A model generated the notes under the pieces. It did not search any database. It saw only the letters and a list, made by a program, of their open reading frames with translations, and was not told the DNA's origin. From Rhodopirellula sp. (GTDB lineage: Bacteria; Planctomycetota; Planctomycetia; Pirellulales; Pirellulaceae), in contig PAUV01000113.1 in NCBI GenBank assembly GCA_002712845.1, positions 1 through 12,406 of the forward strand: a DNA stretch of 12,406 nt, given 5' to 3'. Positions within the stretch are counted from its first letter, which is position 1, and each line of letters opens with the position of its first letter. A program made the translations under genes and the position numbers. Of this stretch, positions 87 to 12,406 are shown piece by piece.

Positions 87-257
87 TTTCTAATGTCGCA
101 AGGAAAGTGCCTCCCCACGGCTCCGACGGTCGCAGCAAGCCTCAGCATCGATTTACCTGAGCACCGAGGCCAGAAGCTCGCAACACTGTATGATAGCAGG
201 GCCGGTGCACGTCGACCTGCCCTCCAATTTCCGCTCCCAACCTATTATTTCTTGCTG

Positions 258-2192
258 ATGAACGAATTGAAAATGCCACAACGAGCTATGGTTCTTTTGT
301 TTGTCTTGGCCGGCTTTACTGTTGCCAAGTGTTCAACCGCGTTTGCTGCGGACCGCCCCAACATCGTCTGGATTGTTTCCGAAGACAATTCAATTCATTA
401 CTTGGAACATTTCTTTGAGGGAGGCGCACCAGCCCCCAATATCGAGGCAATGGCGACTCACGGCCTGACATTCAACAATGCTTTTTCGAACGCCCCTGTC
501 TGCTCCGTTGCCCGCACTACACTCGCAACAGCATGCTATGGCCCGAGAATCGGAACCCAGTTCCATCGCAGATACGCCATGGCACCAATGCCCCAAGGTC
601 TGCGGATGTTCCCTGCTTACCTCCGCGACGCGGGATACTACACGACCAACAACAGCAAGAAGGACTACAACGCCGTGGAAGGCAAAGGTGTTTGGGATGC
701 TTCGTCCCGGAATGCTTCATGGAGAAATCGCCCGAAACAGGACCAGCCCTTCTTCCACATGCAATCACACGCGCAGTCACACGAAGGAAGTCTGCATTTC
801 AATCGCGCAGTCTTTGAAAACGACAAGACAAAAACTGATCCAAACAGTATCAAACTTGCAGACTACCACCCCGACACGCCATTATTTCGCTACACGCATG
901 CCCGCTATCACGATCGAATGCTTGACATCGATGCGATTGTGGGAAAAACCGTCCAGCAACTGCGAGAGGACGGGGTACTGGAAGACACCTTCATCTTTTA
1001 CTTTGGTGATCATGGTGGCGTGCTTCCTCGCAGCAAGGGCTATATCTACGAATCGGGACTGCATGTTCCGCTTGTCGTCCGAGTTCCTGAAAACTTCAAG
1101 CATTTAACGCCGGCTACGAACGGCACACGACTAGACGGCTTTGTCAGCTTCATCGACTTTGGTCCGACCACCTTGCACCTGGCAGGTGTCAAAGTTCCAT
1201 CTCAGGTAGATGGCAAAGCGTTCCTCGGCAAGAACATTTCGGAGTCAGCCATCAATGCTCGGGATGAATCATTTGGCTATGCCGATCGATTTGATGAAAA
1301 ATATGATTTCATTCGCTCGATCCGAAAAGGGAAATACCAATACATTCGCAACTACCAGCCGTACCTGCCGGATGGATTGAACAACAACTATCGATACAAA
1401 AATCTGGCGTTCGTTGAATGGCGTGATTTATATAACGCCGGAAAACTGACGGGAGCAGCAAAGCAGTTCTTTGACTCAAAGCCATCAGAAATGCTGTTTG
1501 ACTGTGAAACGGATCCGCATCAGATCAAGAATCTGGCAAATGATCCCAAGTACGCCAAAGTGTTGCGCGAACTTCGCGAAAGACTTCAACAAACCGTCAA
1601 AGGCTTGCCTGACCTGAGTTTTTACCCCGAAAGCTATCTTGCCGAAAATGCGATGCAAAACCCGGTCGCGTTTGGGCAACAACACAAGCAGGAAATCGCT
1701 GAGCTCGTTGACATTGCGGATCTTTCTCTAATTCCCTTCAAACAAGCCAAACCCGCGCTGCTGGCGGCAATAGCCTCTGACGACTCGATGAAACGCTATT
1801 GGGCTGCCATGACCTGCACGGCCTTTGCTGCGGACGCCGCAGAAATAGCAGCGAATGTGAAACCTTTGTTGAAAGATGAGGCATTGATCGTTCGCATGAG
1901 AGCAGCCGAGTTTCTGGGCAGAATTGGAGAGATCAATCCCCAAGACACACTGACACAAATTGTCAACACAACCCAGAATTCAGTCGAAGCCACTGAAGCT
2001 CTGAACTCGGTTGTCTGGTTCAAAGATTTCTTCAACGGTAAATATCCTGTCAAACGCTCAGACTTCAATCCGGTAAGCAACGGAGCGGATGTCGATGATC
2101 GCCTGAACTACATCAACGGTATTCCCTATCCACCCAAGGCCGGAAAAGGCAATGGTCGGAAGAAGCGTACCGCAAAGAACCAGAAGAATTGA
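258..2192 (+). CDS. Secreted sulfatase with C-terminal HEAT-like repeats
   Basis: A 644-residue type I sulfatase (alkaline-phosphatase fold), expected to hydrolyse sulfate esters outside the cytoplasm. The substrate cannot be read from sequence. The start at 258 puts a signal peptide (hydrophobic run ending AFA/AD, about residues 10-31) at the N-terminus. The frame is open back to 42, but that extension is not signal-like and contains a strong hairpin. ATGs at 273 and 288 are alternative starts. No Shine-Dalgarno is seen. Sulfatase core, about residues 33-450: metal-site S-E-D at 41-43 (usually D-D), the Cys motif C82-S-V-A-R86, G-D-H-G at 250-253 and K260 in R-S-K-G. The motif lacks the Pro of the usual C-x-P-S-R, although Cys and Arg remain. 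Residues about 490-610 form helical pairs resembling HEAT repeats. The tail is Lys/Arg-rich. The next sulfatase starts 67 bases downstream with no clear terminator between, which suggests co-transcription. The fold is certain; activity is less so because of the motif changes. Confidence 0.9.
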   Translation: MNELKMPQRAMVLLFVLAGFTVAKCSTAFAADRPNIVWIVSEDNSIHYLEHFFEGGAPAPNIEAMATHGLTFNNAFSNAPVCSVARTTLATACYGPRIGTQFHRRYAMAPMPQGLRMFPAYLRDAGYYTTNNSKKDYNAVEGKGVWDASSRNASWRNRPKQDQPFFHMQSHAQSHEGSLHFNRAVFENDKTKTDPNSIKLADYHPDTPLFRYTHARYHDRMLDIDAIVGKTVQQLREDGVLEDTFIFYFGDHGGVLPRSKGYIYESGLHVPLVVRVPENFKHLTPATNGTRLDGFVSFIDFGPTTLHLAGVKVPSQVDGKAFLGKNISESAINARDESFGYADRFDEKYDFIRSIRKGKYQYIRNYQPYLPDGLNNNYRYKNLAFVEWRDLYNAGKLTGAAKQFFDSKPSEMLFDCETDPHQIKNLANDPKYAKVLRELRERLQQTVKGLPDLSFYPESYLAENAMQNPVAFGQQHKQEIAELVDIADLSLIPFKQAKPALLAAIASDDSMKRYWAAMTCTAFAADAAEIAANVKPLLKDEALIVRMRAAEFLGRIGEINPQDTLTQIVNTTQNSVEATEALNSVVWFKDFFNGKYPVKRSDFNPVSNGADVDDRLNYINGIPYPPKAGKGNGRKKRTAKNQKN

Positions 2193-2259: not shown

Positions 2260-5200
2260 ATGATTCAACGAGCACGCGCCGTGAATAGTTACACCTTACC
2301 GATGATGATCACACAAACGCTGGCGGCAACTTGCTGCATGTTGAGCGGAGTCGCTGCCTGTTTCGTCTTACCGCAGGTATGTGCGGCAGCGGAGGCAACT
2401 GAACAAGATATCGATACACGCCCCAACATTGTGGTCTTGATTGCAGACGATTGGTCATGGCCTCACGCCAGCGTGCTAGGCTCAAAATCGGTCAAGACAC
2501 CGTACTTCGATCGCGTCGCGAACGAAGGAACGCTGTTTGAGAATGCCTTTGTGTCGACACCCTCATGCACACCAAGTCGGCTCAGCATACTCACTGGCCA
2601 ACATCATTGGCGTCTGCAGGAAGGCGATAGTCTGGGCGGATCATTACGAGAGTCATACCCTGTCTACACCGAATTGCTTCAACAGTCCGGTTACCAGGTT
2701 GGTCGCTATGGAAAAGGGGTTTGGCCCAGCAAGCACACGTTTAGAAATCGGGATTCATTTGGAGAACGATATCGTTCCTTTGACGACTTCCTGAAACAAC
2801 GCGAAGCAGGACAACCATTCTGTTTTTGGTACGGTGGCCGTGAACCGCATCGCCCTTATGAAGCAGGCCTCGGCAAGAAGACCGGCATTAAACTGGCGAA
2901 TATCAAAGTCCCCGCGTGCCTGCCCGATAACCCGATCGTGCGAAATGATCTCGCTGACTACATGGCTCAGGTACAGCGATTCGACGATCAGGTTGGTGAT
3001 ATCATTCAACGCCTTGAAGCGATGAATGAGCTCGACAATACCATCGTGGTCGTTACCAGCGATAACGGGATGCCCTTCCCTCGTTGCAAGGCAACTTTGT
3101 ACGACATGGGCACACGTGTGCCGTTGGCAATCCGCTGGGGTAAAACGCAGCCGCATACGGTGACTGACTTTGTCAGCCTGTGTGACCTGGCACCTACCTT
3201 TCTAAACGCAGCAAACAGGAGCGTGCCGCAGCAAATGACGGGAAAAACGCTGCTGCCACAGATCAAAGCTACACAAAATGGCCAAATCGATCCGAACCGC
3301 ACGTTCGCCCTTAGCGGTTTGGAAAAACATGTTTACCCCTACCCTGCCCGATCATTAAGAACCGCAGACTTTCTCTACATTTCGAATTGGAATTCAGCTG
3401 ATTGGGAGACCGGGGTCGTCGAGGGACGGAATCCTGAATACGATTTTTCGGAATTACCTTGGCCGACAGAACCGGGAGCTTTTTCATACAACATCGACCC
3501 GTCGCCAACCAAACAATATCTGCGACTGAACCCTGAAACAGCCAAGCGTTTTGCGAACTTGGCATTTTCTCAAAAGCCCCCCGAAGAACTCTATGATCTA
3601 AAACGTGACCCGCAACAATTGACCAACTTGGCTAATTCACCCGAGTACGCACGAGCACAAAATCTTCTCCGTCGAAAATTGACTGCCGAGTTGATCCGCA
3701 GCAATGATCCTCGTACACGCATCAAAGGTTATCGCAACCGAAGCCTCGTGGGTTGGCCCATCCGCATCAGCCGTGAACTGCGAGACTCGCAACCCGAAAA
3801 GACCGCAACGGCACTCAAGCTGATCAAGCAGCAACTTCAGCACCTGACCTATATTCTCCCTGCAGAATCTCTCGCGATCATTCGAGACGTTCCGATCTGG
3901 CTTTCACCACCTTATGACGGAGTTCGTCCAACAGCTGAATACCATCCTGGTGCTGACTGGTTACAACAACAGGGTCGCAGACCTGAATTGGTTGAATGCG
4001 TAGAACTGACCAATATCGACATCTTCGCCCGTGAATACAGACGCATGCCCATGCTCATGCTGCATGAACTGGCACATGCTTACCACCACCAGTTCCTGGG
4101 TTTTGAGCATCCCGGAATCAATCAGGCTTACGAGCAAGCAAAGGCCAGCGGTAGCTATGAGTCAATTCTACGCGGCAACGGAAGACTTGAACGCGCCTAT
4201 GGCCTGAACAATTCACGGGAGTACTTTGCCGAAACCACCGAAGCATTTTTTGGAACCAATGATTTCTATCCATTCGTTCGTGCAGAATTACACCAGCACG
4301 ATCCTCGAATGGAAAAGACCCTGGCTCAAGCCTGGAAGCCGACCAACCCGCTGGCTCATGCTGGGACCCCAACCCGAGTGGCGGCCTTGACCCCGCGTGC
4401 CGCTGCCATTGCAGCACCTGCCCCCCCCAAAGAACCGCAGGTGACCGACTACAAGGTCACCGACATTCCCGAAGCACTGGAACTGGATCCATTTTACAGG
4501 AAGTACATACACGCCTCTGGCTATCCCATTGTTTCATCGGGAGCGGTAAACGACTACGCACTGAAAGAAGCCGCGTTCCTTGTCGACATGATGCTAAAAA
4601 AACGTCCCGACATTCGGCAGGCGATGATCGACAGTGGATCCCGCATGATCGTGATCGGCCACAACGAGTTCACTTCAGACATTCCTGAATACAAACACTT
4701 GCGTCCGAAAGATTTCTGGGATGCACGAGCGAGAGGTTTGGGGGGATCCCGTCAGGACGCTGTCTGCTCCTGTGCAGAAGAAAACGTACTTGCGTTTCCT
4801 GGAGATCCCTACTCGACCGAAAACATCCTGATTCACGAATTTGCGCACAACATTCACTTGCGTGGCTTAGTGAATCTGGACCCCACCTTTGATGACCGTC
4901 TACGCAAGTGTTATGACGAAGCGATGAAAAACGATCTTTGGCAATCCAAGTACGCATCCACCAATCATGCAGAATATTTTGCTGAAGGTGTGCAATCATG
5001 GTTCAACAACAATCGTCCACCCGATCACGACCACAACCACGTGGACACTAGAAAAGAGTTGATCGAATATGACCCTGGCCTGGCTGCCATTTGCAGAGAG
5101 GTCTTTGGTGCAACTGAATTGGCTTATACAAAGCCACAACAAAGGCTGAAGGGCCACATGCAGGGTTATGATCCCAAAAAGGCCCCCACATTCAAATGGC

Positions 5201-5286
5201 CCGCGCGACTGAACAAAACAAAACAAAAGATCCGCGACGACATCAAGAAACAGGGCGATGAACGCGAAAAGCCCTACAAAAACTAG
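2260..5286 (+). CDS. Sulfatase fused to two lethal-factor-like metallopeptidase domains
   Basis: A 1008-residue secreted multidomain enzyme. Residues 1-44 look like a signal peptide (hydrophobic core 15-40, ending CAAAEA); ATGs at codons 15 and 16 are alternative starts. Sulfatase domain, about 53-485: D63-D64, the formylglycine motif C103-T-P-S-R107, and S-D268-N269-G-M-P-F-P. This last pattern resembles heparan N-sulfatase (SGSH) rather than D-H-G enzymes. First metallopeptidase, about 495-695: H602-E-L-A-H606, Y647 and E654 in E-Y-F-A-E. An Ala/Pro-rich linker spans about 695-730. Second metallopeptidase, about 730-965: H859-E-F-A-H863, Y898 and E905 in E-Y-F-A-E. In both, Tyr lies exactly 7 residues before the Glu, as in anthrax lethal factor (Y728/E735, from memory). 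This points to a gluzincin of the lethal-factor / Pro-Pro endopeptidase type. The C-terminal 30 residues are Lys-rich. All active-site residues look intact, so desulfation plus proteolysis by one protein is plausible. The peptidase substrate is unknown. Confidence 0.92.
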   Translation: MIQRARAVNSYTLPMMITQTLAATCCMLSGVAACFVLPQVCAAAEATEQDIDTRPNIVVLIADDWSWPHASVLGSKSVKTPYFDRVANEGTLFENAFVSTPSCTPSRLSILTGQHHWRLQEGDSLGGSLRESYPVYTELLQQSGYQVGRYGKGVWPSKHTFRNRDSFGERYRSFDDFLKQREAGQPFCFWYGGREPHRPYEAGLGKKTGIKLANIKVPACLPDNPIVRNDLADYMAQVQRFDDQVGDIIQRLEAMNELDNTIVVVTSDNGMPFPRCKATLYDMGTRVPLAIRWGKTQPHTVTDFVSLCDLAPTFLNAANRSVPQQMTGKTLLPQIKATQNGQIDPNRTFALSGLEKHVYPYPARSLRTADFLYISNWNSADWETGVVEGRNPEYDFSELPWPTEPGAFSYNIDPSPTKQYLRLNPETAKRFANLAFSQKPPEELYDLKRDPQQLTNLANSPEYARAQNLLRRKLTAELIRSNDPRTRIKGYRNRSLVGWPIRISRELRDSQPEKTATALKLIKQQLQHLTYILPAESLAIIRDVPIWLSPPYDGVRPTAEYHPGADWLQQQGRRPELVECVELTNIDIFAREYRRMPMLMLHELAHAYHHQFLGFEHPGINQAYEQAKASGSYESILRGNGRLERAYGLNNSREYFAETTEAFFGTNDFYPFVRAELHQHDPRMEKTLAQAWKPTNPLAHAGTPTRVAALTPRAAAIAAPAPPKEPQVTDYKVTDIPEALELDPFYRKYIHASGYPIVSSGAVNDYALKEAAFLVDMMLKKRPDIRQAMIDSGSRMIVIGHNEFTSDIPEYKHLRPKDFWDARARGLGGSRQDAVCSCAEENVLAFPGDPYSTENILIHEFAHNIHLRGLVNLDPTFDDRLRKCYDEAMKNDLWQSKYASTNHAEYFAEGVQSWFNNNRPPDHDHNHVDTRKELIEYDPGLAAICREVFGATELAYTKPQQRLKGHMQGYDPKKAPTFKWPARLNKTKQKIRDDIKKQGDEREKPYKN
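4421..4428 (+). other. Run of eight C in the inter-peptidase linker
   Basis: A homopolymer of eight C lies within the codons for the Ala/Pro-rich linker (Ala-Pro-Ala-Pro-Pro, about residues 718-723) joining the two metallopeptidase domains. The frame reads through correctly as given. Runs like this are prone to slippage and to sequencing errors, so a one-base change here would separate the second peptidase from the first. Confidence 0.7.
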
Positions 5287-5403: not shown

Positions 5404-7212
5404 TTGCCTACAGATTCGGTAGATCCTTTGAATTACCCTCTTTCCTGCTTCCAGCTGGCGGCGTTTCTTGTATTCACGCTGCCCGCTACGCTCAGCAAAG
5501 CTGACGAACCGAAAACCAGTTTGGCAGCTTCGGCTGCGCCGCCCAACGTGTTGTTCATTGCCGTTGATGATCTGAATGACTGGATCGGTTGCCTGAAAGG
5601 GCACCCGCAAACACTTACCCCCAACATCGATCGGCTAGCGGCTTCAGGAACATTGTTCACGAATGCGCACTGCCCCGCTCCCGCTTGCAACCCGTCGCGG
5701 TCAGCAATCATGACCGGCATTGCGCCCAACCAATCTGGGCTGTACGACAACCGGCAAAAGATGCGGGAGATACTTCCTACTGCTGACCTGATGCCCAAGC
5801 ATTTTTCACGCAATGGCTACCATTCACTAGGTTCAGGCAAAATCCTGCACTACTTCATTGATGCGCAATCATGGGACGATTACTACCCTGCCAAAGAAAG
5901 TGAGAATCCATTTCCGCGAACGCTGTACCCAAAACAGCGTCCCGTCAACTTGAGCCGCGGTGGTCCTTGGCAATATGTCGAAACTGACTGGGCAGCGTTG
6001 GATGCCACCGATGAAGAGTATGGCGGTGACTGGCTGGTGTCCAAGTGGGTTTCAGAGCAACTAGCGGAACAGCATCAAAAACCATTCTTCCTTGCGTGTG
6101 GTATCTACCGTCCTCATGAACCCTGGTTCGTCCCTCGACCTTACTTTGACAAGTTTCCCCTCGCCCAAATCCAACTGCCGCCGGGCTACCGGGCGGATGA
6201 TCTTGATGATCTACCAACGGCAGGTCGCAGACGTGGTCCCAACCGGTACTTTGAACACATCCAAGCGGAGAACCAGTGGAAGCAGGGAATTCAGGGCTAC
6301 TTGGCTTCCATCGCATTTGCGGATGCCATGGTCGGACGAGTGATCGATGCTTTGGAATCTGGTCCCAACGCTGACAATACGATTGTTGTCCTATGGAGTG
6401 ATCACGGATGGCATTTAGGTGAGAAGCAACACTGGCAAAAATTCACAGGATGGAGAGTCTGCACAAGAGTCCCACTAATCATTCGAGCCCCGGAAGGCTG
6501 CCCCGGGCTAACTGCTGGAACCGTTGCCGGCACAAAGTGCGACCAACCGGTGAACCTGCTGAGTCTGTTTCCTACACTGACCGATCTCAGCGGCATCCCC
6601 GAAAGCAGCCAAGCCGATGCGCCAAGTCTTCTTCCGCTGCTTGAAGACTCGCAAGCTGACTGGTCACATGTCTCAACCACCTACTTGAACCGCCCAGAAG
6701 ACTACAGCATCAGCGATCATGACTGGCGATACATCCATTACAAAGACGACAGTGAAGAACTGTATCAAATCAGTTCCGATCCACATGAATGGAACAACCT
6801 TGCTACGGATCCTCAGCACCTATCGCGTTTGCGGTACTTTCGCTCTCGTGCGCCCAAAGGTTTTCATGAATACGTGCCTATCAGTATCAATGCGATGCCG
6901 AAACTTCAATGGAATACGATCACCCAGGAAATGGCTCCTCCATCCAAGCCTGATGGACAGCCTTTCGATTGCTACTTTGTAAATCGCAGAACAGACGAGC
7001 TTGAGTTGTTCTGGATCAGCCCCGCGGGCAAGCCACAGAGCTACGGAATCCTGTCCCCCAATGTTCCCAAACGCCAAAATACGCGGCCCGGAGCTGTTTG
7101 GATGGTAGCTGACCAAGAGGGGCAGAACTTGGGATTTTTCAGGATAGGCGACCGGGGTTCACGAGCCATTGTCCCAGCAGTACCCCAAACCCAACTTGCT
7201 CCGAAAAAGTAG
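5404..7212 (+). CDS. Iduronate-2-sulfatase-like sulfatase with C-terminal VHL-like domain
   Basis: A 602-residue secreted sulfatase (numbered from TTG 5404). No in-frame ATG precedes the catalytic Cys. An in-frame stop lies at 5347, and the only candidates are CTG 5398, TTG 5404 and TTG 5428 (GGTAGA four bases upstream). All keep the signal peptide (hydrophobic stretch through about residue 31). The core resembles iduronate-2-sulfatase: D55-D56, formylglycine motif C95-N-P-S-R99, G-S-G-K146, R-P-H238-E-P-W, S-D333-H334-G-W-H-L-G-E-K341-Q-H-W. The core ends near residue 490. Residues 518-592 match the von Hippel-Lindau beta domain: N527-R, W537, G542, Y547, T560, G563, W566, with spacing identical to remembered human pVHL (N78, W88, G93, Y98, S111, G114, W117). 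The pVHL His115 position is Ala564. Animal pVHL uses this surface to bind hydroxyproline. Here the module may target the enzyme to a protein or glycoprotein substrate (inference). It ends A-P-K-K. Confidence 0.92.
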   Translation: MPTDSVDPLNYPLSCFQLAAFLVFTLPATLSKADEPKTSLAASAAPPNVLFIAVDDLNDWIGCLKGHPQTLTPNIDRLAASGTLFTNAHCPAPACNPSRSAIMTGIAPNQSGLYDNRQKMREILPTADLMPKHFSRNGYHSLGSGKILHYFIDAQSWDDYYPAKESENPFPRTLYPKQRPVNLSRGGPWQYVETDWAALDATDEEYGGDWLVSKWVSEQLAEQHQKPFFLACGIYRPHEPWFVPRPYFDKFPLAQIQLPPGYRADDLDDLPTAGRRRGPNRYFEHIQAENQWKQGIQGYLASIAFADAMVGRVIDALESGPNADNTIVVLWSDHGWHLGEKQHWQKFTGWRVCTRVPLIIRAPEGCPGLTAGTVAGTKCDQPVNLLSLFPTLTDLSGIPESSQADAPSLLPLLEDSQADWSHVSTTYLNRPEDYSISDHDWRYIHYKDDSEELYQISSDPHEWNNLATDPQHLSRLRYFRSRAPKGFHEYVPISINAMPKLQWNTITQEMAPPSKPDGQPFDCYFVNRRTDELELFWISPAGKPQSYGILSPNVPKRQNTRPGAVWMVADQEGQNLGFFRIGDRGSRAIVPAVPQTQLAPKK

Positions 7213-7280: not shown

Positions 7281-7400
7281 CGTCCCGGCACCCTGCCTGA
7301 AAGATGCGTTTGAACGCAGGAAATCAAGGCCAACAGATTTTCAACCAACAGCAGAACGAGGCTCGGCTAGGCCTAAACACCTTCCCCAAAGCTTGGAAAA

Positions 7401-7430
7401 CTGAACCTGTTTCGCAGCATTTCGTATTAT
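7401..7430 (+). promoter_or_regulatory. Possible sigma-70-type promoter for the M1 peptidase gene
   Basis: TATTAT at 7425-7430 differs from the -10 consensus at one position. CTGAAC at 7401-7406 lies 18 bases upstream as a weak -35. The pair sits 66 bases before the chosen ATG at 7496, within the 283-base gap that suggests a separate transcription unit. Planctomycete promoter rules are poorly known, so this is only a candidate. Confidence 0.25.
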
Positions 7431-7495
7431 ACTTCTCGCTTACACATCATCGAAGCTTGGGTCAAAAAGGCCCGTTACACCACGACCTGCCCCGT

Positions 7496-10114
7496 ATGAA
7501 CACCCTGATGCGCAGCCTACTACTCGCCTTATGTTTCCTCGGTACTGTCACTCTCGTTTCTGCTGAAGAGCGGATTTGTCGCTATTGCGAAGAGGGGCGA
7601 AGTCATCTCCTGCCGCTCGGGCTCGACCTGCAAGGAAAGTTTCACTATGCCCCAGATCGTCAGGTTGACGTCAAGCACATCAAACTGGACGTCACTCCTG
7701 ACTTTGTGAAACGAACCGTCAGTGGATCTGTCAGCATCACAGCACAACCAATTGCCAAGCCAGTCGAATTGCTGAATTTGGATGCAAAGGACATCACTGT
7801 CAAAAAAGTCACTTGTGAGCAAGCGGCTGTCAAAGACTTTGTTTCAACACGCGAGTCGCTACAAATCCTGTTCGCACAACCTGTTCAGGTTGATACCGAA
7901 TTCACCGTTGTGATCGAGTACGCGGCGCAGCCCAATGCTGGGCTTTACTTTCGGACGCCAGCGATGGGATATCCGGAGACCGACACCCATATCTGGACTC
8001 AGGGTGAAACACACGAAGCTCGCCACTGGTTCCCGTGTTTCGATTACCCCAATGAGCGTTCCTCAACCGAGGTGATTTGCCATGTCCCCAAAGACATGAC
8101 GGTACTCAGCAACGGCGTGAAGAAGGGTGAATCCATCGATGCAAGCGGACTCAAGGCGGTGCGATGGTATCACGAGAAACCGCATGCCAACTACTTGATC
8201 TGCTTGGTAGCTGGCCACCTCGAAGGTCTGGAAAAGCGTCATCGAAACGTTCCCCTGGGTTTCTACACACAACCTTCTCTTGCCAAATACGCCGCCAACT
8301 CGTTTCGCGACACTCCCGATATCATGGCGTTCTTTGAAGAAGAAATAGGAGTTGAATTTCCATGGCCCAAGTATGACCAGGTCACGATCCTCGACTTCAC
8401 TGCTGGTGGCATGGAGAACACCACCCTGACCACCCTCACCGACGGGACCATCTTTGCAGAAGCAACTGAAAACATCCGCACCACCCGTGGTCTCGATGCC
8501 CACGAACTGGCGCATCAATGGTTTGGTGACTATGTCACGTGCAAAGACTGGAGCCACCTTTGGCTGAACGAAGGCTTTGCCACGTACTACACACATCTGT
8601 ATGAGGGCCACAAGTTCGGCCGCGATGCAATGCTTTATGGCCTGTACCGTGATGCATCGGGTCGGATTTTGACTCAGGGCAAGGACAAGAAACCCATTGT
8701 CTACAACGGCTACAAGAATCCGATGGAGCAATTTGATTATCGCTCCTACCCAAAAGGCAGTTGGGTGTTGCACATGCTTCGCTCTCAATTGGGTGAAGAC
8801 CTGTATCGCAAATGCATCAAGTCCTATCTTGAGAAGCACGCTCTCACTAGTGTTGTATCAGACGATCTGCGACAGGTGATCGAACAACACTCAGGCCGGC
8901 CAATGGATCGTTTCTTTGATCAATGGCTGTACCATGCTCGACACCCTGACCTGAAGATCAGCTACAAGTGGATGCCAAAACAGAACCTTGCAAAAGTCAA
9001 CATCAAGCAGACACAAACGCTGGATGATGATGTTTTGCAATTCCACTTCCCAACAAAACTGCGATTCATCGCCGATGGGATGTTGGTCGACTACCCCATC
9101 AACGTCACTAAGATTGAAGAGGACTTCTACGTCCCACTCGACAAGCAACCGGCGATCGTCAGATTTGACCCCGAATACAGCGTGCTGGCGAATGTTTCGT
9201 TCGACAAACCGAATGGGATGTTAAAAAAGCAGCTTGAAAACAACAACGACATGGTTGGTCGCCTGCTGGCGTGCAAACTCTTGGAAACGCGTAAGACGCA
9301 CGAGTCGGTCGAGTTACTGACCAATGCCTTGAAGAATGATTCTTTTTATGGGGTACGCATCGCCGCTGCATCTGCGTTGGCCAAGCACGAGTCAGATGAG
9401 TCTCTTGAAGTCTTAGCCGATAACTGGAAAACGCAAACAGACGCCCGCGTTCGCTCTGCCGTGGTTGAGAAGCTAACAAACCGCTATCGGGATGAAACAC
9501 CCGCGTTGATCCAAAGCGTGCTCGAAAATGAGAAAAACCCCGCTATCCTCGCAAATGCAATTCGCGGGCTGGGCAGATTCCATGGACCAACCACACACGA
9601 GGCTCTGCTCAAATTCCTGAACACGAAATCGTTTCGAAATGAGTTGGCCGTTGCCGCCATGTCAGCAATCCGTCAACTGGATGATGATGATTTACAACCT
9701 GCCGTCTTTAAGTCACTTCGCGAAAATGCAAAACAATTCCGCTCACGTGATTACGGTCGTGGCCTCGAAACACTTGCCCACACAAGTCGCCGATTGAAAG
9801 ATCGCAGCGAAGTCCGGCAATTCCTTACCGAACATCTTGATCACCCCAAGGCCAGCATTCAGGCAGCAGCCGTCCAAGCATTGGGAACCCTCGGCGACCC
9901 CAAAGCGATCACAATCCTTGAATCGGTCAGTCAGTCGGAAAACGAGCGGATCTCACGTCCGGCACAGCAGGCCGTGTCGAAACTGCGTGAAGTGAAACCT
10001 ACAACGCCAAAAGAGATTCTCGAGTTACGAAAAGAAATTGCTGAGGTTAAAAAAGAGAGTGATAAACTTAAAACGGAACTCAAAACACTCCGCGAACAAG
10101 TAGAAGCCAAATAA
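7496..10114 (+). CDS. Secreted M1 aminopeptidase with HEAT repeats and coiled-coil tail
   Basis: An 872-residue gluzincin of family M1, which removes N-terminal residues from peptides using one zinc ion. The ATG at 7496 starts a clean signal peptide (residues 1-23, ending VSA/EE). The frame is open to 7304, but that extension is not protein-like. The mature N-terminus carries C28-R-Y-C31. The M1 beta domain begins near residue 45. The exopeptidase motif is G304-G-M-E-N308 (usually G-A-M-E-N). The zinc site is H336-E-L-A-H340 with E359 in W-L-N-E-G-F, the exact HExxH-x18-E spacing. Y418 in S-Y-P-K-G is the likely transition-state Tyr. Catalytic elements look complete. From about residue 586 to 830 there are repeated two-helix units of HEAT type, then a heptad-patterned charged helix (about 838-872) likely to form a coiled coil. 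Together they suggest docking or oligomerisation, not known from sequence. It probably releases amino acids from peptides made by the neighbouring peptidases. Confidence 0.93.
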   Translation: MNTLMRSLLLALCFLGTVTLVSAEERICRYCEEGRSHLLPLGLDLQGKFHYAPDRQVDVKHIKLDVTPDFVKRTVSGSVSITAQPIAKPVELLNLDAKDITVKKVTCEQAAVKDFVSTRESLQILFAQPVQVDTEFTVVIEYAAQPNAGLYFRTPAMGYPETDTHIWTQGETHEARHWFPCFDYPNERSSTEVICHVPKDMTVLSNGVKKGESIDASGLKAVRWYHEKPHANYLICLVAGHLEGLEKRHRNVPLGFYTQPSLAKYAANSFRDTPDIMAFFEEEIGVEFPWPKYDQVTILDFTAGGMENTTLTTLTDGTIFAEATENIRTTRGLDAHELAHQWFGDYVTCKDWSHLWLNEGFATYYTHLYEGHKFGRDAMLYGLYRDASGRILTQGKDKKPIVYNGYKNPMEQFDYRSYPKGSWVLHMLRSQLGEDLYRKCIKSYLEKHALTSVVSDDLRQVIEQHSGRPMDRFFDQWLYHARHPDLKISYKWMPKQNLAKVNIKQTQTLDDDVLQFHFPTKLRFIADGMLVDYPINVTKIEEDFYVPLDKQPAIVRFDPEYSVLANVSFDKPNGMLKKQLENNNDMVGRLLACKLLETRKTHESVELLTNALKNDSFYGVRIAAASALAKHESDESLEVLADNWKTQTDARVRSAVVEKLTNRYRDETPALIQSVLENEKNPAILANAIRGLGRFHGPTTHEALLKFLNTKSFRNELAVAAMSAIRQLDDDDLQPAVFKSLRENAKQFRSRDYGRGLETLAHTSRRLKDRSEVRQFLTEHLDHPKASIQAAAVQALGTLGDPKAITILESVSQSENERISRPAQQAVSKLREVKPTTPKEILELRKEIAEVKKESDKLKTELKTLREQVEAK

Positions 10115-10206
10115 CACCTCGCATTCCAGGCACCTGGCAAGCCTACGTGCCGCGCGTTTGCGAAGTATTTTAATCACCCAATGATTTCCTCCGGGCTGTT
10201 GAATTA

Positions 10207-10236
10207 AAATGCTTTGCAACCAAATGCTTTGCAACC
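10207..10236 (+). repeat. Two tandem copies of a 15-bp unit
   Basis: AAATGCTTTGCAACC occurs twice without interruption, at 10207-10221 and 10222-10236, in the gap before the S15 peptidase gene. The identity suggests a recent slippage duplication. Each copy holds the inverted half-sites TTGCAA or GCTTTGC only weakly, so a protein-binding role is speculative. The remainder of the 252-base gap shows no clear gene, promoter or strong terminator; GGCAC/GTGCC (10129-10133/10147-10151) is a weak stem. Confidence 0.8.
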
Positions 10237-10366
10237 AACGGAGCAGTAATCGTGTGACCAGCGTCACAAGGGGTCTGCTTCCGCTAACCCATGTTTTTCA
10301 CTGGCATCAGTCATTCCCATGTGGCTGACTCCATTCCTTTCATAATGCTTATACGGATTCGTGTTC

Positions 10367-12223
10367 ATGCAACGATTTCTCGCTGCTCCACTGCTGTTGT
10401 TCCTGTACCTTCCGATTCTGCATGCAGCAGACCCTGTTGTTCCCGTTTTCAAGGATGGCGAGGCGCAAATTGTTGAAGGTTTCAAAGATTCAGACTTCTG
10501 GATCAGACACGACCTGTGGGTCGAAACTGAATTCGACACGGATGGAGATGGAAACCTGGATCGCATGCATGTCAGCGTGACGCGTCCCCGACAAACCGAC
10601 ACCGAAGGTTTGAAGCTACCCGTGGTTTATGTTTCCAGCCCATATTTCGCGGGCACCGGCTCAACGGCGGCCGAACATTTCTGGGACCCAAAACAGGAAC
10701 TTGGCACTGAGCCACCTGAACGAACTCACGGCCCGGGAGTGGTGCGAAAAGGAAAGCGTCCGATCATCTCAAGAACCCACCTCGATCAGTGGGTACCGCG
10801 AGGTTACATCGTCGTCCACTCGTCCTCACCTGGCACCGGACTATCTCAAGGTTGCCCCACCGTCGGTGGTGATAACGAATCGCTGGCCCCCAAGGCAGTC
10901 GTCGACTGGCTTTGCGGAAGAGCAAAAGGCTTCACTGAACCGACAGGTGGCGAACCAGTCAAAGCGTTCTGGTCAACAGGCAAGGTAGGCATGACAGGAA
11001 CGTCGTACAACGGCACCATCCCGTTGGCTGCCGCAACCACCGGTGTCGAAGGCCTTGAGGCAATCATTCCGATCGCTCCCAACACTTCGTACTACCACTA
11101 CTATCGATCCAATGGCCTGATCCGACACCCTGGTGGGTTTATCGGGGAAGACATCGATGCTCTCTATGACTTCATTCATAGTGGTGATGAATCAAATCGG
11201 GAGTTTTGTGACTGTAACGTTCGTGACAAGGAGATGGCGGAAGGGTTTGACCGGGTCAACGGAGACTACAACGATTTCTGGGCCGGTCGTGATTACCTGA
11301 ACGATCTTGAACCACTCAAAGCAGCCGTTTTAATGGCCCACGCCTTCAACGACTGGAATGTCGTTCCAGAACACAGCGTCCGCATTTACGAGGCACTCAA
11401 GAAAAAGGGAGTCCCCACACAGGCTTTCTTTCACCAAGGTGGTCACGGTGGCCCACCCCCTATGAAAATGATGAATCGATGGTTCACTCGATATCTGCAT
11501 GGTGTAGAAAACAAGGTTGAAGACGATCCCAAGTCATGGATCGTCCGAGAGAACAAAGAACGCGACAAGCCCACGTCGTACCCGGAATATCCGCACCCGG
11601 AAGCAGCCGCTGTGACTATGCATCTGGGGCAGACCACGACGAAGGGTGGACGTGGAGACTTGACGACAACTGCAACCACTAAACAGGGCAAGGAAACACT
11701 GATTGATAATTATTCCTTCAGTGGTGCGACCTTGGCAAAAGCCGAAAGAACTGACCACCGGTTGATGTTCGTGACGCCCACCTTGCAACAACCAGTGCAT
11801 ATCTCAGGAACACCACAAATCAAGATTCGCCTGGCCTGTGATAAGCCCGCCGCGAACCTTTCAGTGTGGGTAGTTTCACTGCCCTGGAATGATAATCGCA
11901 ACGCGAAAATCACTGACAATATCATCACCCGTGGTTGGGCAGATCCACAGAACTATCGATCGATCACTGAAAGTGAACCGCTTGAACCAGGTCGCTTCTA
12001 TGAGATGTCTTTCGATCTACAACCAGATGACCAAGTGATTCCGGCTGGCCAACAAATCGGCTTGATGATCTTTTCAAGCGACCGTGAATTCACACTCCAC
12101 CCGGAACCTGGCACCCAATTGACCATTGATCTGGATGCAACATCGCTGGCACTACCGGTACTGGGTGGAAAAGAAAAGCTGGAAGCAGCATTTCGTGAGA
12201 AAAGCAAAAAGAAAAAGAAGTGA
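10367..12223 (+). CDS. Secreted S15-family Xaa-Pro dipeptidyl-peptidase-like enzyme
   Basis: A 618-residue serine hydrolase of the alpha/beta fold, most like bacterial PepX-type Xaa-Pro dipeptidyl-peptidases, which release X-Pro dipeptides from N-termini. The ATG at 10367 gives a signal peptide of about 20 residues (ending LHA/AD); GTG at 10361 would add two residues. An Asp-rich loop D57-T-D-G-D-G-N-L-D65 precedes the hydrolase core and is typical of these enzymes. The nucleophile is S213 in G-T-S-Y-N-G, the acid D329 in F-N-D-W-N-V, and the base probably H360 in G-G-H-G (H356 is nearby). D-to-H spacing of 31 is close to that of lactococcal PepX (30, from memory). Residues about 405-600 fit the C-terminal beta-sandwich domain of this family. 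It ends K-S-K-K-K-K-K. S15 also includes ester and acyl hydrolases, so Xaa-Pro specificity is likely but not proven. The 252-base gap upstream suggests possible separate transcription. Confidence 0.9.
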   Translation: MQRFLAAPLLLFLYLPILHAADPVVPVFKDGEAQIVEGFKDSDFWIRHDLWVETEFDTDGDGNLDRMHVSVTRPRQTDTEGLKLPVVYVSSPYFAGTGSTAAEHFWDPKQELGTEPPERTHGPGVVRKGKRPIISRTHLDQWVPRGYIVVHSSSPGTGLSQGCPTVGGDNESLAPKAVVDWLCGRAKGFTEPTGGEPVKAFWSTGKVGMTGTSYNGTIPLAAATTGVEGLEAIIPIAPNTSYYHYYRSNGLIRHPGGFIGEDIDALYDFIHSGDESNREFCDCNVRDKEMAEGFDRVNGDYNDFWAGRDYLNDLEPLKAAVLMAHAFNDWNVVPEHSVRIYEALKKKGVPTQAFFHQGGHGGPPPMKMMNRWFTRYLHGVENKVEDDPKSWIVRENKERDKPTSYPEYPHPEAAAVTMHLGQTTTKGGRGDLTTTATTKQGKETLIDNYSFSGATLAKAERTDHRLMFVTPTLQQPVHISGTPQIKIRLACDKPAANLSVWVVSLPWNDNRNAKITDNIITRGWADPQNYRSITESEPLEPGRFYEMSFDLQPDDQVIPAGQQIGLMIFSSDREFTLHPEPGTQLTIDLDATSLALPVLGGKEKLEAAFREKSKKKKK

Positions 12224-12283: not shown

Positions 12284-12319
12284 GTGCTCTCGAGGTTTCT
12301 GAGCAAGCCTCCAGAGCAC
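12284..12319. other. Hairpin joining an inverted repeat copy to the tandem array
   Basis: GTGCTCTCGAGG (12284-12295) is the reverse complement, with a single mismatch, of CCTCCAGAGCAC (12308-12319), the first 12 bases of the first repeat unit. The loop is 12 nt. The inverted copy stands alone on one side of a direct array, so it could in principle pair with any unit. Confidence 0.6.
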
Positions 12320-12406
12320 GGGCCTCCAGAGCACGGGCCTCCAGAGCACGGGCCTCCAGAGCACGGGCCTCCAGAGCACGGGCCTCCAGAGCACGGGCCT
12401 CCAGAG
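12308..12406 (+). repeat. 15-bp direct tandem repeat array, truncated by window end
   Basis: CCTCCAGAGCACGGG is repeated six full times (12308-12397) plus nine bases (12398-12406), with every copy identical, and continues past the window. There are no spacers. The 15-nt period is a multiple of three, so all frames can stay open: the + strand reads Ala-Ser-Arg-Ala-Arg in one frame, and the - strand reads Leu-Trp-Arg-Pro-Val. Nothing else suggests that it is translated here. It is a minisatellite-like, probably length-variable, intergenic array. Confidence 0.95.

Follow-up and report, generated by a model that had tools for sequence, protein, structure and literature searches.

A sulfatase fused to two zincin domains

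The window analysed in this work (the whole stretch of 12,406 nucleotides, contig PAUV01000113.1 of Rhodopirellula sp.) carries the gene of a fusion protein, here called P0001, in which a sulfatase is followed by two zinc-peptidase-like (zincin) domains, hereafter alpha (the first) and beta (the second); neighbouring genes encode further sulfatases, an aminopeptidase and a dipeptidyl-peptidase (Table 1). Labels beginning with L, P and G denote the loci, proteins and genomes of this analysis. A sequence-only reading of this DNA had described one open frame of 1008 residues with a formylglycine (fGly) motif and two HExxH sites, and we found all of them in place: the frame is uninterrupted, the fGly motif is C103-T-P-S-R107, and the zinc sites are HELAH at residues 602-606 and HEFAH at 859-863. 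Two or more HExxH motifs arose by chance in 5 out of 5000 shuffles of the P0001 sequence (mean 0.043).

Table 1. Genes and protein domains of the window (nucleotide positions; aa, amino acid residues of the encoded protein).
Feature	Position	Strand	Description
sulfatase-alpha-beta protein P0001	2260..5286	+	1008 aa, uninterrupted open reading frame
S1-type sulfatase domain of P0001	2416..3726	+	aa 53-489
alpha zincin of P0001	3757..4353	+	aa 500-698; nearest solved fold: lethal-factor catalytic domain
alpha-beta linker of P0001	4354..4458	+	aa 699-733; Ala/Pro-rich, flexible
beta zincin of P0001	4459..5157	+	aa 734-966; nearest solved fold: Pro-Pro endopeptidases
sul1	228..2192	+	sulfatase with C-terminal HEAT repeats; start chosen by eye
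sul3	5404..7212	+	sulfatase (CNPSR) with C-terminal VHL-like domain, aa 522-573
M1 aminopeptidase with HEAT repeats	7304..10114	+	true start may lie downstream of 7304
X-Pro dipeptidyl-peptidase (S15)	10361..12223	+	neighbour gene

When the whole protein was scanned with Pfam, Sulfatase matched residues 55-319 (2.6e-36), ATLF matched best at 599-668 (32.8 bits, cut-off 27.4) and Peptidase_M90 best at 837-920 (27.5 bits, cut-off 26.2). Scanned singly, alpha (19.8 bits) and beta (18.9 bits) both fall below the ATLF cut-off, and beta falls below that of Peptidase_M90 (24 bits). The N-terminus is hydrophobic and, judged by eye, resembles a Sec signal at residues ~15-43; P0001 is apparently secreted. 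The Pfam architecture of the fusion is already visible in protein database records, and no description of a sulfatase-M34 fusion was recognised among the papers listed in literature searches, judged from titles and abstract openings. The folds are known and the combination is new.

Conservation of the fusion

The sequence-only reading had left open an assembly error as the source of the fusion, which is now ruled out. Seven loci of Planctomycetota, L001-L007, contain the same uninterrupted frame (74-97% identity per domain, leaving aside signal and linker), and L008 of Verrucomicrobiota contains a version with an extra sulfatase at its N-terminus; an additional relative, P0025, comes from an 8.5-Mb contig of Rubripirellula lacrimiformis. 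The ratio of nonsynonymous to synonymous substitution rates (dN/dS) against seven relatives is 0.03-0.10 for the sulfatase domain, 0.03-0.09 for alpha and 0.008-0.03 for beta, and is looser in the linker at 0.15-0.9 (the L005 sulfatase and linker and the L007 beta domain gave no estimate). Purifying selection acts on the sulfatase, alpha and beta, most strongly on beta, and this together with the recurrence of the frame in other loci excludes an assembly chimera.

Of 241 genomes taken from the family of G002, 121 match alpha or beta at E 1e-60, and at least eight contain the complete sulfatase-alpha-beta frame (G001-G006, G178 and G188). Six of these eight, plus G188, whose frame length matches L003, correspond to loci named above. 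G064 has a sulfatase-beta frame at a contig position that matches L043. These frame counts are lower bounds based on 30 matching places given as loci. In a plasmid collection 470 records matched, none of them covering >80% of the query. A 666-codon frame in L096 (G192) starts late in the sulfatase and runs on into alpha-beta, so that the sulfatase looks reduced and the zincins retained; P0021 and P0027 are similar to it in length and layout.

Active sites and modelled fold of the zincin domains

The catalytic residues are H602-E603-H606, Tyr647 and Glu654 in alpha and H859-E860-H863, Tyr898 and Glu905 in beta, and both sites match the HExxH/Tyr/Glu pattern of M34-like gluzincins. Among the aligned tandems, HExxH and the downstream Glu with a Tyr seven residues ahead are kept in all 122 alpha and all 121 beta domains. 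A degenerate second zincin was considered and rejected, the catalytic positions being intact in both domains. Since alpha and beta sequence profiles found no credible solved structure, the gluzincin fold call rests on models. The listed matches of the full-length model were only sulfatases and related hydrolases, and the alpha-beta module was therefore modelled alone (predicted local distance difference test, pLDDT, 87.1); a family's absence from these match lists does not exclude it. The nearest solved structures of the module are the Pro-Pro endopeptidases (PPEPs) and lethal factor. A viral structure library gave no match at E 0.001. The M34/ATLF-like assignment of the sequence-only reading, which was to be checked by structure prediction, therefore holds: the catalytic positions are kept and both C-terminal domains model as gluzincins. 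The linker shows low model confidence across most of its length and weak constraint. Both gluzincins are predicted to be active, and they probably differ in specificity.

Beta also contains the sequence DHDHNH at aa 922-927 (window 5023-5040), which is present in 115 of 120 tandems and in 119 of the 120 single beta proteins listed; it is possibly a second metal site.

The similarity to known peptidases is limited. PPEP-1, -2 and -3, which are secreted and have an M34-like fold, share 13-17% identity with these zincins and, unlike P0001, have neither a sulfatase nor another zincin attached. The match to lethal factor (ATLF, M34) is confined to the zincin domains, and here both domains keep their catalytic residues, their order is interchangeable and their partners are sulfatases or other hydrolases. 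M90 (MtfA-like) peptidases, a family known from a cytoplasmic protein of one domain, are a weaker structural match to beta than PPEP. The GH78-sulfatase fusion of Formosa agariphila (6hr5) likewise joins a sulfatase module to another hydrolase, but its partner is a glycosidase whereas that of P0001 is two peptidase-like domains.

Alpha and beta as a mobile pair of families

Alpha and beta are homologues (BLASTP 23% identity, 2e-06; hhalign probability 98.2, E 4.2e-14). Residues 500-1008 were used as a search query (1215 proteins of 7998 scored), and tandems were counted in the best 120. Together with P0001 these make 121 tandems, of which 62 are alpha-beta, 58 are beta-alpha and one has three copies. 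By Pfam, the partners among the best 120 are sulfatase (29), SASA esterase (7), DPP-IV (6) and DUF885 (2); the sulfatase stands ahead of alpha-beta in 28 proteins and behind beta-alpha in P0095. A separate scan of eight long tandems agrees on the partners except for P0053, a tandem plus third zincin with no partner domain.

Proteins with a single alpha or beta are mostly 210-350 residues long, and each of those listed (120 beta and 120 alpha) has one HExxH, although some are fragments or carry remnants (P0122, P0260, P0292 and P0353). At E 1e-3 the alpha family has 2738 proteins and the beta family at least 6601; where the source records name them, most are called 'hypothetical protein' and a few are called 'metallopeptidase' or 'zinc-dependent peptidase'. 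On a tree of 135 beta domains (45 from alpha-beta tandems, 40 from beta-alpha tandems and 50 singles out of the 120 listed) these three arrangements require 14 changes, at least four of them being imposed for alpha-beta by well-supported branches, so joining or loss occurred more than once; the alpha tree was made as a quick version. We concluded that alpha and beta are two paralogous families that also stand alone and pair in both orders. Of the 'tripartite enzyme' in the sequence-only reading, the architecture stands, but the zincins belong to separate mobile families and the sulfatase is one of several partners.

Sulfatase domain and lineages

The catalytic residues of the P0001 sulfatase are D63, D64, C103-TPSR107, K152, H197, D268, N269 and K277, which include the fGly motif C-x-P/A-x-R and the metal-binding Asp/Asn of type I (S1) sulfatases. 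Apart from the His of GKxH, no catalytic position has been lost. Its best matches among solved structures include S1_8A (2.5e-37) and sulfamidase (4.5e-29), given here as matches and not as a subfamily call by a SulfAtlas model. The fGly motif, metal Asp pair, DNG...K and SGSH_C are shared with these enzymes, whereas P0001 has GKG for GKxH and a C-terminal zincin pair. S1_8 members include 2-O- and N-sulfate hydrolases (PMC12549532).

A quick tree of 75 sulfatase domains places the fused sulfatases of the P0001 type together with L043 and L032 in a single lineage (support 98), adjoined by the sulfatases of Haliscomenobacter (an annotated protein of 501 residues) and Persicobacter (support 99). 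Beta-sulfatase proteins of Fuerstiella (L027, L030, L031) and the beta-alpha-sulfatase protein P0095 fall outside this lineage, with weaker forks, long branches and different domain order as the grounds for separating these two. The front sulfatase of L008, P0028 and P0022 belongs to another type, clustering with the sulfatase beside the beta-alpha gene in L076 (support 99). Judged from these groupings, sulfatases of at least two lineages have joined these zincins, and probably of three or more. The P0001-type clade was sampled through the zincin query, so the association of its members with zincins is by construction and was left unused. L032 also contains, at 8034-11785, a beta gene directly ahead of a frame in which sul_ab-type and sul3-type sulfatases are joined, a further way of arranging these parts.

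All seven genomes examined contain at least 112-113 sulfatase matches each, with 215-296 first-look candidates. At this density the fusion is weaker evidence of a shared substrate than it seems, and the adjacency of single beta genes to sulfatases was discarded as a clue to function.

Gene neighbourhood and VHL-like domains

The order sul1, sulfatase-alpha-beta, sul3, M1 and S15 on one strand recurs in L001, L002, L005, L006 and L007, and is the same up to the contig ends in L003 and L004; L008 retains sul3 beside sulfatase-alpha-beta. Further sulfatases, among them a fusion with a GDSL lipase domain, lie within ~20 kb in G005 together with a SASA protein, but with sulfatases so abundant in these genomes proximity alone tells little. 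The fGly site of sul1 is CSVAR for CxPSR (kept in six of six relatives looked at), and sul1 has Glu-Asp for Asp-Asp and DHG for DNG. The alignment of a solved S1_8A sulfatase likewise shows C-S-T-A-R, Glu-Asp and DHG, and sul1 may therefore belong near S1_8A. Downstream of the S15 gene, a perfect tandem array of a 15-base unit (6.7 copies, 12307-12406) reaches the window end.

The C-terminal stretch of sul3 (window 6967-7122) scores 22.9 with Pfam VHL (cut-off 21). Among six relatives scanned, L001 and L006 exceed the cut-off, L002, L005 and L007 are below it, and L008 gave no row. A profile of seven sul3-type stretches found only VHL chains in PDB at E <=1 (2.4e-7). Of the VHL pocket residues, which we take to be W88, Y98, S111, H115 and W117, sul3 keeps W88, Y98 and W117. 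A second, N-terminal VHL-like type is related to that of sul3 (hhalign 97.6%) and has Thr at 111, Gly, His at 115 and an aromatic residue at 117, with Y98 absent. VHL-like domains occur in 52 of 59 beta-alpha tandems, in 0 of 120 beta and in 1 of 120 alpha singles listed, as counted with models built partly from the counted proteins.

Discussion

The reading we favour, at a probability of about 0.5, is that P0001 is a desulfating, glycoprotein-degrading secreted enzyme of a marine Pirellulaceae relative (Rhodopirellula, Rubripirellula). The sulfatase domain would clear sulfate esters from a sulfated glycoprotein so that the peptide becomes exposed, the two gluzincins would then endo-cut the backbone of glycoproteins of that kind, and the co-linear neighbours (two sulfatases, the M1 aminopeptidase and the X-Pro dipeptidyl-peptidase) would finish the degradation. 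The analysis supports the parts named in the sequence-only reading; that desulfation and proteolysis are coupled on a single substrate is plausible. In eukaryotes, VHL is a hydroxyproline-binding protein, and this, the PPEP-like fold and the X-Pro peptidases suggest proline- or hydroxyproline-rich substrates, for example an algal hydroxyproline-rich glycoprotein or arabinogalactan protein. We regard this as a lead rather than a demonstration, and put the proline preference forward tentatively.

Several observations weigh against this reading. No activity of any alpha or beta protein was found in the literature searched. The full-length model has a predicted template modelling score (pTM) of 0.46, so contacts between domains are not predicted. 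The P0001 sulfatase lacks the His of GKxH (GKGVWP), a second active-site His that is common in S1 sulfatases but not defining; it is also absent in the Bacteroidota relatives Haliscomenobacter and Persicobacter, and its absence is therefore a subfamily trait. In genomes so rich in sulfatases, adjacency and fusion are cheap. As for the VHL-like domains, S111 is Thr and H115 is Ala in sul3 (same numbering), only 8 of 61 alpha-beta tandems carry such a domain (counted with the same models), and P0001, absent from the profile hits, has none. The N-terminal VHL-like profile alone gave no VHL row against PDB, its best row being an LRP4 chain (1.7e-4; single stretches <=6.4 bits). A mixed profile finds VHL (2.5e-7) but includes the sul3 type, so the link rests on the hhalign match with the sul3 type. 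PPEP-3 has a Glu pair at the zinc ligand and an S1' His eight residues ahead of the first zinc His (PMC12828418). Both are absent here (A904-E905 and Y851 in beta, R653-E654 and R594 in alpha, counted from motif offset and not by superposition), and we do not claim PPEP membership. CD1597, a PPEP-like protein with HExxH, is reported to be inactive on the Pro-Pro peptides tested (PMC11460543).

An alternative use of the zincins would be to cut the cell's own surface or secreted proteins, as characterised PPEPs do with adhesins encoded beside them, releasing cells or enzymes, with the sulfatase as cargo or separate. The closest folds are those of PPEPs, whose known targets are surface proteins of their own hosts (PMC12828418, PMC11460543), and the alpha-beta linker has a Pro-Pro in 10 of 28 listed sulfatase-fused proteins, P0001 included. 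However, the neighbours here are sulfatases and exopeptidases, not adhesins, the PPEP pocket residues are not retained, and 18 of the 28 linkers are without Pro-Pro, and in several of the remaining ten it lies at the beta edge and not in the linker itself. This alternative is unlikely, and self-cleavage at a Pro-Pro linker is unsupported as a general rule. Less probable still is a division of labour in which only one zincin cuts and its partner mainly positions the substrate, as lethal factor does with its two related domains, of which one lost catalysis. The name of PF07737, 'N- and C-terminal domain', fits the two related domains of lethal factor and beta is more constrained than alpha, but neither domain of the aligned tandems has lost its catalytic residues and each domain exists alone with its HExxH. 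An incidental fusion, in which chance joining in sulfatase-rich genomes gave a shared secretion but not a shared substrate, would fit the sulfatase numbers, the varied partners and full frames in as few as the eight or more of 241 genomes, but is equally improbable given sulfatases of different lineages fused in different orders, the sulfatase-alpha-beta/sul3 pair kept in a second phylum (L008) and the strong constraint on every domain.

Returning to the glycoprotein-degrading enzyme, a broader version of it would make alpha and beta a matched, shuffled pair in an undescribed extracellular system of Planctomycetota and Verrucomicrobiota that dismantles sulfated (hydroxy)proline-rich glycoproteins with attached sulfatases, acetylesterases and DPP-IV, and recognises its substrate through a bacterial relative of the VHL beta domain; this version we regard as doubtful. 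Accounts of how sulfated glycoproteins of algae and animals are broken down usually feature glycosidases, sulfatases and peptidases as separate enzymes, and a single chain together with a conserved X-Pro/M1 cluster would offer a direct handle on the way in which the protein within sulfated matrices becomes accessible. Both zincin families are large, with active sites intact in the listed members, and the VHL-like domains raise the question of proline or hydroxyproline recognition in bacteria.
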